A program made the position numbers and the translations under genes. A stretch of 64,000 bases of DNA from positions 110,657,727-110,721,726 of the forward strand of contig NC_092458.1 in the NCBI RefSeq assembly GCF_047495875.1, in the 5' to 3' direction. Of this stretch, positions 10,425-53,311 are shown piece by piece; within the stretch, counting starts at the first letter, position 1; every line of letters starts with the position of its first letter. The notes beneath the pieces are model-generated. The model made no database searches, was not told where the DNA came from, and saw nothing but the letters and a program-made list of their open reading frames with translations. This DNA is from Pithys albifrons albifrons (Eukaryota > Chordata > Aves > Passeriformes > Thamnophilidae).

Positions 10425-10848
10425 GACTATGTTCAGCTCTGGGGCCTTCATCATAAAAAGCTGGAGCACCACTTGCAGGGAGACAGGCTGAGAGAATTGG
10501 GGTCATTCAGCCTAGAGAAGGCACCAGTACAGGGGGCAGGGCTACAAGAAATACAGAGAGGGAATTTTCTACAAGGGTATGTAGTAATAGGACAAAAGGG
10601 AATGGCTTCAAAGTGAAAGAGGGTAAGTTTAGCAAGAAATGTTTCACTGTGAGGGTGGTGAAGCACTGGCACAAGTTGCCCAGAGAAGGTGGGGATGCCC
10701 CATCCTGGAAGTGTTCAAGGTCAGGTTGGATAGGGCTTTGAGCAGCATGGTCTAGTGGAAGGTGTCTCTCACTGCCCATGGCAAAAGGGTTGCAACTAAA
10801 TGATCTTTAGGTCCCTTTAAACCCGTCATCCTCAATCATTCTATGAAC
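10425..10848 (+). mobile_element. CR1 LINE 3' fragment, sense
   Basis: This is a 5'-truncated copy of the avian CR1 non-LTR retrotransposon. It begins in the C-terminal part of ORF2, where the frame reads RLRELGSFSLEKA, matching the conserved RELGLFSLEKRR-type end of the CR1 reverse transcriptase ORF. It runs through the usual 3' region (TGAGGGTGGTGAAGCACTGG, then GTTCAAGGTCAGGTTGGAT) and ends at ATTCTATGAA, the CR1 terminal octamer motif. The ORF is broken by stops, so the copy is dead. 5' truncation is normal for CR1. Confidence 0.93.
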
Positions 10849-20252: not shown

Positions 20253-21409
20253 TCTTGAGGTTATTTGCTAAGAAAAAGCTGACACCCTAAAAAGAAAAAA
20301 ATAGCTCTTTCATCCTGTACAAATTCCTGTGGGGTGAGACTGCCATTTCCCTCACAGTATGTAGCTGGAGGTATAAAGAGTATTTATAAATATATGCATA
20401 AAGGGGGTTCTGTACAGCTCACATTTACCAAAGAACAGTGTGAGGTATAGACTAAAATAAGAACTTTTTTTTTTAATGTAGGCTACATGAAAGGGGAAAG
20501 AAGTGACAGATATGTTGCCTGATTAAGAGCTTTGTTAGGTTTAAAGCTTCAACAGCAAGCCTTTCTATATAAAATTGTACAACTGAGACTGTCTAAAATA
20601 TACAGTTTATATGTCTACTGAAAAACTGAAGTGTAAAAAGAGTGAGAGCAAGGCAACGACAGTTCCACGTGTCTATTCCAGGCAGTATATGCAGTCTACA
20701 GGCATCAGAATGTTCTTTGCAAATATGTGATGCTGGCAACTTTTATCCCAAAGTGTCTCAATAATGATCGGATAGCAATGGAAAGGAAATATTTCTGGAC
20801 TGGATGTTAGAAGATAAAACAAAATAAAAGTAGTGCACAACAACAGAGAGTGGAGGAGAAAATTGAATCAGAAAGCAGGACATGCACTTTTTCATTCTTA
20901 ACATGCTGGTAAAGCAGCTAGGAAAACAGAGCTCACAGTGCAAGATGTAATGGGAATGTGGAGGTTAGCAGGTGAAATAAAATTTATCTTTCTACTCTTC
21001 TGTTTGTAGAAGTTCCCTGTCAGGGAAGAATTTCCAATTCCAAAGCTCCCAAGATATAATTCAGGAGAGTGCCAGTGTCTCAGTGGTACAAAAACCAAAA
21101 GGATCTACTTGAATAAACTGGCATTACTTACGCCAATAGATGAGGAATGTTCCACCTACAGCTCCTGCAAATCTTGCCTATATCTCATAAGCATTTCAAG
21201 ACTGCTTCCTTCCCTGGCCTAGGTTACATGATGGATGACTAGGCTGTCCTTTGGTCAAAGTTCAACAACAATCCAAATTGCTACATTTAGGAGATAAAGC
21301 AAACAAACAAACAAACAAAAATAAACCAGAGGTGATTGAGGCAGGTATCACTGAGAGTGCTGAGATCCTTCTGAATATTCGGCCCCATACCACAGCCTAG
21401 TGAAGAACG
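20253..21409. other. unique non-coding DNA
   Basis: No features except a short (CAAA)n run at 21299-21320, just before the CR1 fragment. Confidence 0.55.
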
Positions 21410-21866
21410 GTCATAGAATAACCAATGTTCGAAGGCATACCTGGAGGTCACCTGGAATGACACCCTGCCTAGAGAAGGGGAATCCAGAGGAATTTGTTTA
21501 ATGTCCAATCTGGTTTTGAATGTCTTCAAGGATGGAGACTCCACAAGGTATTTAGAAAAACTGTTCCAGTATTCTATCATCCTCATACTAAGAAAGTTTT
21601 TCTCACATTTAAATAGAGTTTCCTGTATGCCTCTTTGTGATCATTGCCTCTTACCCATACACTGGGCAACTGACCCTTCAGGCTGTCTTCCTTAGTCCCT
21701 TCCTTCACGTATTTATTTATACATATGGATAAAGTCCCACAAGCCCTCTCACCTCCACAGTTAACAATCTCAAGCTCTTTCAGCCTCTGATCATACAGGA
21801 TGGTGCATTTTGTCCCTGTGATCCAGGTCATTAATAAAGAGGTTAAACAGTATTGAACAGTCAGGT
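21410..21866 (-). mobile_element. CR1 LINE fragment, antisense, with internal deletion
   Basis: The plus strand begins with CATAGAATAACCAATGTTCG, the complement of the CR1 3' end, and passes through the usual antisense landmarks (CTGTTCCAGTATTCTATCAT and CTCTTTCAGCCTCTGATCAT). The complement of 21820-21850 encodes LFNLFINDLD, which sits upstream of the catalytic ADD box in the reverse transcriptase domain. In an intact CR1 that motif lies more than 1 kb from the 3' end, so several hundred bases have been lost between it and the downstream part. Inactive. Confidence 0.85.
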
Positions 21867-41453: not shown

Positions 41454-41482
<29 letters not shown>

Positions 41483-41975
41483 GAGGGAAAAAAAAGGAAA
41501 AAAAAGGAAAAAAGGAAAAAAAAAAAGGAAAAAAAGAAAAAAGGGAAAAAAAAGGAAAAAAGAAAAAAGGAAAAAGGAAAAAAGGAAAAAAGGGAAAAAA
41601 GGGGAAAAATGAAAAAAAAGACAAAAAACCAAAAAGAGACAAAAAAGACAAAAAAGACAAAAAAAGGAAAAAAGAAAAAAGGAAAAAAGGAAAAAAAAAG
41701 GAAAAAAAAGACAAAAAAGGGAAAAAAAGGGGGGAAAAAGGAAAAAAGGAAAAAAGGGAAAAAAAAGGGAAAAAAGGGAAAAAAAAGGGAAAAAAGGGAA
41801 AAAAAAGGGAAAAAAAGGGAAAAAAAAGGGAAAAAAAGGGAAAAAAAGGGAAAAAAAGGGAAAAAAAAGGGAAAAAAGGGAAAAAAAGGGAAAAAAAGGG
41901 GAAAAAAGGGGAAAAAAGGGAAAAAAAGGGAAAAAAAGGGAAAAAAGGAAAAAAGGAAAAAAGGAAAAAAGAAAA
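41454..41975 (+). repeat. polypurine tract, (GGG A6-7)n
   Basis: An almost pure purine stretch of 522 bp. 41454-41609 and 41713-41975 contain no pyrimidine at all. The middle (41611-41712) has a few C residues in GACAAAAAA units. The right half is a near-regular repeat of GGG followed by six or seven A (period 9-11). Long Lys/Gly frames on one strand and Phe/Pro/Leu frames on the other arise only from this composition. Such tracts can form intramolecular triplexes (H-DNA), and the G runs with loops of seven or fewer satisfy the loose quadruplex rule. Confidence 0.97.
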
Positions 41976-45865: not shown

Positions 45866-46102
45866 GCAGATGTCAATTAAATATTAGGAAGAAATTCATT
45901 ACTGTGAGGGTGGTGATGCACTGGGACAGGTTGCCTGGAAAAACTGAGGATGTCCCATCCCTGGAAGTGTTCAAGACCAACTTGGATGTGGCTCTGAGCA
46001 ACATGGTCTAGTGGAAGGTGTCTCTGCCCATGGCAGGGGGGTTGGAACTGGATGAGCTTTCAGGTCTTTTCCAACACAATCCAGTCTATGACTATGTGAT
46101 TG
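45866..46102 (+). mobile_element. CR1 LINE 3' end, sense
   Basis: Starts within AATATTAGGAAGAAATTCAT and runs through ACTGTGAGGGTGGTGATGCA, CTGGAAGTGTTCAAGACC and the CR1 3' untranslated region to a degenerate terminal repeat (CTATGACTATGTGATTG). It is strongly 5'-truncated, keeping only about the last 240 bp. It begins about 80 bp after the probable LTR and keeps the best-preserved 3' region of the CR1 copies here. Confidence 0.93.
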
Positions 46103-52925: not shown

Positions 52926-52940
52926 CCTATCCTTTCCTAT
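52926..52940. repeat. target-site duplication, left copy
   Basis: CCTATCCTTTCCTAT, identical to 53297-53311. The pair exactly brackets the SINE. Confidence 0.93.
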
Positions 52941-53130
52941 GTATGGCCATATTTCCCGAACGAAGATCTGGGAAGGGCTCTCCCCAGGTGAGTGTGCCCT
53001 TCCAGCCTGCGCAGTGGATGTTTTAGGTGAGGCACAGCGTGTGCAGAACTGGTCCCACCGTTTCAGTCCTAAGGTCCATCTGCCATGGCCGAGAGAGCTT
53101 GGACAGTGATAGTGAAGTCCTCAGGACTGT

Positions 53131-53199
53131 CACAGCACCCGGTACTAATCGGGGCTGACCCTGCTGAGCATCCGAGATCTGACGGGATCGGATGTCAGG
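53131..53199 (-). other. 5S rRNA-derived segment of the SINE
   Basis: On the minus strand it reads CATCCGATCCCGTCAGATCT, CGGATGCTCAGCAGGGTCAG, CCCCGATTAGTAC, CGGGTGCTGTGACAG. This follows vertebrate 5S rRNA through GATCTCGGAAGCTAAGCAGG and GGTTAGTAC, then jumps directly to the 3' end CGGGTGCTGT. About 26 bases holding box C (TGGATGGGAGACC) are missing, as are the first bases of 5S. It is not a functional 5S gene. Confidence 0.85.
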
Positions 53200-53220
53200 G
53201 AGGCATTGAACTGCCCAGTA

Positions 53221-53294
53221 TGGTCTCCACTGAGACTCCAACTCACGACCTTGTGATCCAGAGTCCGGCGTGCTCACCACTACACCACGGGACC
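53221..53294 (-). other. tRNA(Gln)-derived head of the SINE
   Basis: 74 nt that align end to end with a tRNA. The 5' GGTCCCG partly pairs with the 3' GGAGACC, and the anticodon-loop equivalent CTCTGGA puts CTG (Gln) at the anticodon. The arm equivalents carry mismatches (anticodon stem 3' half TCACA instead of a complement of CCGGA), so it is a SINE head and not a working tRNA gene. Confidence 0.8.
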
Positions 53295-53296
53295 TC

Positions 53297-53311
53297 CCTA
53301 TCCTTTCCTAT
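53297..53311. repeat. target-site duplication, right copy
   Basis: CCTATCCTTTCCTAT, identical to 52926-52940, directly after the SINE. Confidence 0.93.

Follow-up and report, generated by a model that had tools for sequence, protein, structure and literature searches.

The window, by which we mean the whole 64,000-nucleotide stretch of DNA analysed here, carries on its minus strand a copy of a compound SINE in which a tRNA-Gln-derived head stands before a 5S rRNA-derived segment, followed by a body and tail that appear to come from the LINE AviRTE. This arrangement very probably arose when a 5S SINE mobilised by AviRTE gained a tRNA head, and with that gain its promoter would have moved from the 5S type to the tRNA type of Pol III promoter. 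From the 5' side of the element onward, the copy is made up as follows.

53297 to 53311, no strand: left target-site duplication (element's 5' side), an exact 15-bp repeat of 52926-52940
52941 to 53296, minus strand: compound tRNA-5S SINE copy; 39 further full-length or nearly full-length copies were fetched, about 90 to 92% identical to it
53222 to 53293, minus strand: tRNA-Gln(CUG)-derived head; Rfam tRNA match of 18 bits, under the gathering threshold (29); 58 of 72 positions identical to a host tRNA-Gln(CTG) gene
53277 to 53287, minus strand: predicted A box of a tRNA-type Pol III promoter; no mismatch to the A-box consensus TRGYNNARNNG
53234 to 53242, minus strand: predicted B box; one mismatch in the window copy, and none in the family consensus, to the B-box consensus GWTCRANNC
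53132 to 53216, minus strand: 5S rRNA-derived segment without 26 nt that include the C box, by Rfam 5S and alignments
53142 to 53144, minus strand: scar left where the C box was deleted, at a TAC common to both deletion ends, by alignments and a genome-wide junction signature
52981 to 53128, minus strand: body, probably derived from the AviRTE 5' UTR, by published primer sites (the limit at 52981 is approximate)
52941 to 52980, minus strand: tail, probably from the AviRTE 3' UTR, with a published length of about 40 bp; length and bipartite tail are taken from PMC4844689
52952 to 52965, minus strand: 3' stem-loop of the family, CTTCG-TTCG-CGAAG, by the fold of the consensus; decayed in the window copy to 3 of 5 pairs
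52926 to 52940, no strand: right target-site duplication (element's 3' side), an exact 15-bp repeat

An earlier note on this DNA had called the element a SINE, and a search of the host genome for further copies confirms that it is a genuine one. The perfect 15-bp direct repeat that the note had described around a 356-bp minus-strand element is present on both sides (CCTATCCTTTCCTAT, at 52926-52940 and 53297-53311). It lengthens to 18 bp if one mismatch is allowed, and a shared stretch of at least 15 bp was met at 3 of 2,000 random window positions of the same geometry. Both edges of the copy are ambiguous by 2 to 3 bp, because the consensus element begins with GGG and the tail continues with ATA. 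With the element as query, the host genome (1.144 Gb in 53 contigs) yielded 5,250 first-look candidates, and the best 40, which were scored, all proved full-length or nearly so and came from many contigs, with 2 further rows partial. All 42 rows were fetched; the 40 full-length copies, the window copy included, were aligned, the 2 partial rows were kept apart, and the family consensus came to 358 nt. The copies have different flanks and duplications of their own: a target-site duplication score of at least 9 was reached by 29 of the 40, compared with 2 of 400 combinations in which flanks were mixed between copies, while 7 copies had no duplication by our criterion and 4 more only a weak one.

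The numbers of candidates returned by our three family searches (5,250, 3,622 and 3,249) should not be read as copy numbers. Allowing up to 2 mismatches, a 20-letter signature that spans the junction left by the 5S deletion was found at 1,516 + 1,498 = 3,014 places in the genome, and the reversed pattern at none. A random sample of 18 stretches of 10 kb (180 kb, from 11 of the 53 contigs) held two compound copies and no copy of the 5S-only kind described below; by extrapolation we estimate about 12,700 copies of the compound form, with Poisson limits as far apart as about 1,500 and 46,000.

The body of the element had been left unrecognised in the earlier note, which had offered an RTE-type LINE as a guess for the mobilising partner. 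The body can now be recognised, since it is matched by the two primers published for the AviRTE 5' UTR. According to PMC4844689, AviRTE is a LINE of RTE type that occurs in filarial nematodes and in seven lineages of birds, suboscine passerines among them; SINEs mobilised by it carry tails from its 5' and 3' UTRs, and primers in its 5' UTR were published for a 126-bp amplicon. In the window copy these primers match at 53105-53125 (minus strand, 2 mismatches in 21) and 52999-53017 (plus strand, 2 in 19), in the correct orientation and 127 bp end to end compared with the published 126 bp. The family consensus matches them with 1 mismatch in 21 and 2 in 19, again over 127 bp. At up to 3 mismatches each primer matches the window once, and shuffled sequences with any match numbered 0 of 100 for one primer and 1 of 100 for the other. 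Judged by these 40 primer letters and their spacing, most of the body would be AviRTE 5' UTR. Its last part should be AviRTE 3' UTR by its length, which agrees with that of the full 3' UTR (about 40 bp, by the length published in the same source). The tail of the consensus folds as two hairpins, of which CTTCG-TTCG-CGAAG is the last; all 5 pairs of this stem-loop are kept in 23 of the 40 compound copies, 4 pairs in 14 and 3 pairs in 3. Beyond the tail the consensus runs into an (ATAC)n end. With the primer matches and this end taken together, the guess of an RTE-type partner gains support and is very likely right.

Two boundary patterns were used to look for the AviRTE LINE itself in the host genome, and by these it was not found, all matches being SINEs: the pattern at the assumed 3'-UTR boundary occurred at one place, in a 5S-only SINE (L097), and the pattern at the 5' boundary of the AviRTE part at seven, all of them SINEs with a changed base. 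A pattern made from the AviRTE primers had no match in a collection of genome contigs. It did match two viral contigs (L001 and L002) that agree with the window copy at 19 of 20 bases; their surroundings are unlike those in the element, the site in L001 falls inside an open frame of 346 aa, and both were rejected.

The 5S rRNA-like segment of the earlier note is present, by Rfam and by shuffling, but it is not full-length. Rfam 5S_rRNA matches 53216-53111 on the minus strand with 24.9 bits, under the gathering threshold of 38, and the alignment score of 76.5 that the element attains against a 5S sequence was reached by none of 2,000 dinucleotide shuffles. Absent from the compound form are 26 nt of 5S, running from TAGTAC to the TAC that is followed by CGGGTGCTGT and including the C box. 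The TAC at both ends of the deletion looks like microhomology. Across all 40 compound copies the C box shows at least 6 mismatches, that is, it is absent.

Some compound copies are adjoined by elements that share their tail, begin with 5S and have no tRNA, and adjacent SINE copies also occur in the host genome at L014, L039 and L043. A 5S-only element used as genome query gave 3,622 candidates, the 40 best of which were scored (the query at 100%, the other 39 at 95 to 96%); from these 40 rows we read the query and 16 others, and altogether 28 5S-only copies, drawn from three lists, were compared. The C box is intact, with at most 1 mismatch, in all 28 copies read. Their target-site duplications score at least 10 in 20 of the 28, compared with 2 of 300 mixed flanks, and at least 9 in 22 of the 28, compared with 10 of 300. 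Most begin at the 5S end GGGCAGTTAAATGCC, and a few are shorter. Ten copies end like the compound form in (ATAC)n, with a mean divergence of 4.3%, and 18 have a (CA)n tail, with a mean of 2.0% from their own consensus. The (CA)n set (L069-L084, L014 and L097) also has a changed 3' UTR (GAAGCCGAGCCACAC). The low divergence of its 18 selected copies suggests that this set was active later than the compound form. As far as a brief published description allows agreement to be judged, the co-resident 5S-only family fits a GymnSINE-like element. Together with the AviRTE tail, this family suggests that the host is a bird, probably a suboscine passerine close to the antbirds.

Compound and 5S-only forms share more than their tails. 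Over the 56 positions before the deletion, the consensus of the 5S-only (ATAC)n set differs at 8 from human 5S; the compound consensus shares all 8 of these changes and has 2 more. In a tree of the 40 compound and 28 5S-only copies the compound copies form one clade, with an SH-like support of 0.941 on 237 clean common columns and of 0.987 when 278 columns, some with letters from the flanks, were used. On its 5' side the 5S part of the compound form still begins as the 5S SINE does. The form that bears the C box has the older structure, because a lost stretch does not return by itself, though one of the 5S-only sets looks younger by divergence. Two 5S-only copies, L049 and L090, are without an extra A found in the others, and in this they resemble the likely source of the compound form.

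A free tRNA-Gln-AviRTE SINE was sought with a query that joined the tRNA head directly to the tail, and among the best 40 of 3,249 candidates, the ones scored, there was no SINE that has a tRNA-Gln head and lacks 5S by origin; a tRNA-only SINE may still occur beyond these 40. The joined query matched throughout at one of the 40 places, and 27 others had a separate row for the tRNA head. The remaining 12 were fetched and comprised eight 5S-only elements, three compound copies (L089, L096 and L115) and L086, which has a C-box-less 5S without tRNA and may have lost its tRNA through 5' truncation. The single throughout match, L085 (G000:C4:19764957-19765355), was rejected as a free tRNA-AviRTE SINE, being a compound copy that lost nearly the whole 5S at a short direct repeat.

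The description of the head as full-length and tRNA(Gln)-like was a fair one. Its anticodon loop in the Rfam alignment is CUCUGGA, so the anticodon is CUG and the tRNA is tRNA-Gln, and the match to the host tRNA-Gln(CTG) gene extends over 72 positions. The best tRNA alignment score of the element was reached by none of 500 dinucleotide shuffles. Of the 16 tRNA sequences compared with the consensus head, tRNA-Gln agrees best (57 of 72), and tRNA-Glu falls outside the best 8. TTTT, which would stop Pol III, is absent inside the element, both in the window copy and in the family consensus. The window has no Rfam match that reaches a gathering threshold, nor does ARAGORN call a tRNA there; a tRNA-Leu call that the program made on the element at a relaxed threshold was taken as spurious.

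Genes that could have supplied the head were sought in the host genome with a tRNA-Gln gene as query, and 10 of the best 40 rows were fetched. Seven loci stood out at 93 to 94%, five of them clustered on one contig; four of the seven were fetched, and ARAGORN calls three of these tRNA-Gln(CTG) and one tRNA-Gln(TTG). The other 33 of the 40 rows lay at 83 to 89%, and the 6 of these that we fetched all proved to be compound SINEs. When the host tRNA-Gln(CTG) gene is compared with the family consensus head, 61 of 72 positions agree; with the heads of individual compound copies the number is 66 (L103, L105 and L106), 61 (L104) or 60 (L102); the C box is missing from L102-L106 as well. Given these identities to the consensus and to the copies, the head of the SINE most likely derives from host tRNA-Gln(CTG). 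The linker GTCCCCT of copies L103-L106 does not occur within the first 10 nt behind any of the four host tRNA-Gln genes. One compound copy, L107 (G000:C8:37622839-37623289), has about 50 nt of its tRNA head tandemly repeated at least 2 more times; the repeats are without the A-box part, so that the B box is multiplied.

We propose that a 5S-headed, GymnSINE-like AviRTE SINE acquired host tRNA-Gln sequence before its 5' end, most simply through template switching of the reverse transcriptase. For the suboscine PittSINE, template switching has been suggested as the way in which one head came to replace another (PMC5729268). The 5S C box would have been lost through a deletion at the TAC microhomology, and all compound copies examined for the C box lack it, as does the tRNA-less L086. 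Pol III would then transcribe the element from the A and B boxes of the tRNA and not from the A/IE/C promoter of 5S. The AviRTE enzyme would recognise the 3' tail and, at a nick in the target, begin to copy the RNA from that end; new SINE copies would be inserted by this target-primed reverse transcription. One may go further and see here a SINE lineage in the course of changing its promoter type, a reading for and against which we find the balance about even. A type 1 5S element with its C box deleted would have survived and reached thousands of copies because a type 2 head from host tRNA-Gln preceded it, its intact 5S-only relatives would have multiplied alongside, more recently by divergence, and two promoter types would be competing for one AviRTE machinery.

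Several other explanations deserve weight beside that of an added head. A rearrangement at a single locus, or a chance likeness to tRNA and 5S, might be argued from the Rfam matches under gathering thresholds and from the silence of ARAGORN on the window. It is nevertheless ruled out for practical purposes by thousands of dispersed copies with different flanks, by their target-site duplications and junction signature, and by shuffled sequences that fall short of the tRNA and 5S scores. A more serious objection is that the compound SINE has already been deposited, as GymnSINE or ManaSINE1, with a head that was described only in part, and that nothing here is new. One figure legend of PMC4844689 does bring together ManaSINE1 with tRNA-Glu, GymnSINE with 5S, and tails from the AviRTE 5' and 3' UTRs, and at a guess a shifted anticodon register (CTC instead of CTG) could turn a tRNA-Gln head into a tRNA-Glu one. 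We consider this identity unlikely, as the 5S-only family, which is separate and abundant and has duplications and a C box of its own, agrees better with the legend for GymnSINE, and as the consensus head agrees best with tRNA-Gln, both among the tRNA sequences compared and with a host gene that ARAGORN calls Gln. A compound head, moreover, goes unmentioned in that legend.

It is also doubtful, to much the same degree, that tRNA and 5S were joined by a genomic accident, through adjacent landing or SINE dimerisation, and not by template switching. Neighbouring SINE copies do occur in this genome, two SINEs can combine into a dimeric one, as in Sbg9 of the cockroach (PMC9191728), and an unexplained linker separates the tRNA and 5S parts. 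Yet the search with the joined query, within the 40 candidates scored, turned up no 5S-less tRNA-Gln-headed SINE, and the 5S part of the compound form retains the start of the 5S SINE. A tRNA head added by template switching to an existing 5S SINE is the reading that we prefer.

How old the window copy is can be judged less closely. The earlier note had deduced a fairly recent insertion from the perfect duplication; the duplication stands, but the deduction is weakly founded, the copy differing from the consensus by 5.9%, or by 3.8% when CpG sites are set aside. For the remaining 39 compound copies, which were chosen for similarity, the corresponding averages are 4.4% and 2.7%, and both compound copies met at random lie 8.5% from the consensus. 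Ages of the SINE copies are lower bounds, because scoring the best 40 favours copies of low divergence that resemble the query, in the 5S-only set as well as among the 39 compound copies aligned with the window copy. AviRTE invaded suboscines more than about 18 to 20 million years ago, according to the available text of PMC4844689. The divergence of the window copy is compatible with that age and does not indicate special youth, and an unchanged 15-bp repeat, by our estimate, allows for tens of millions of years.

Elsewhere in the window, 41454-41970 is a purine-rich low-complexity array with a period of about 10 and about 52 units, with long open frames on both strands. The segments 10629-10813 and 45884-46066 are 81% identical to each other and represent a dispersed repeat. 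An open frame of 117 codons at 21287-21640 (minus strand) resembles the C-terminal end of avian CR1 ORF2; Pfam reported nothing on three window ORFs, this frame among them.

The compound family has the features of a SINE, being multicopy and dispersed, flanked by target-site duplications and headed by a Pol III gene sequence with predicted A and B boxes. Birds have few SINEs, according to PMC5729268. Here an ancestor-like 5S-only family and a family with stacked tRNA and 5S parts occur in one genome, and a change of promoter type within a SINE lineage can therefore be dated, counted and tested. Insertions of both kinds would also serve as presence/absence markers for the bird group concerned.

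Among known SINEs, AmnSINE1 has 5S followed by tRNA and a Deu core. The compound SINE, like AmnSINE1, has both 5S and tRNA in its head, but in the reverse order, tRNA then 5S, and its body carries AviRTE primer sites, while AmnSINE1 is not known to have an AviRTE tail. The earlier note was correct about this order, although the main novelty lies elsewhere. Fruit-bat tRNA/5S SINEs reportedly also have 5S and tRNA sequences in their heads and no AviRTE tail. HaSE3 and HaSE1 of Helicoverpa, in the accessible part of PMC3272025, are 5S- and tRNA-headed SINEs with a common body and tail, the tail of HaSE1 resembling an RTE LINE; likened by description, their heads are alternatives, whereas those of the compound SINE are stacked.

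The closest relatives are the SINEs of AviRTE itself. In the excerpted text of PMC4844689, GymnSINE is the AviRTE-mobilised, 5S-headed SINE of the antbird lineage, and by that description it has the same 5S-derived head and AviRTE tail. The compound SINE differs from it in the tRNA-Gln head standing in front and in the deleted C box, so that its head is not a 5S-derived promoter in any of the 40 copies. ManaSINE1, by the same excerpt, is AviRTE-mobilised and tRNA-Glu-headed and belongs to manakins and tyrant flycatchers; it shares with the compound SINE a tRNA-type head on an AviRTE tail, but the compound SINE has a tRNA-Gln head, which a 5S segment separates from the tail. No compound AviRTE SINE was met among the titles and abstracts listed for bird and suboscine 5S and tRNA SINEs, and within the literature searched GymnSINE and ManaSINE1 are mentioned in PMC4844689 alone. 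For the passerine SINEs PittSINE and TguSINE1, PMC5729268 proposes that a new tRNA head was gained by template switching on an existing SINE. Their tails are CR1-derived with an 8-bp microsatellite end and their old head was replaced, whereas the consensus of the compound SINE ends in (ATAC)n and its old head was kept behind the new one. What is probably new is a tRNA head added onto an already existing 5S-headed SINE, and not the order of tRNA and 5S as such.
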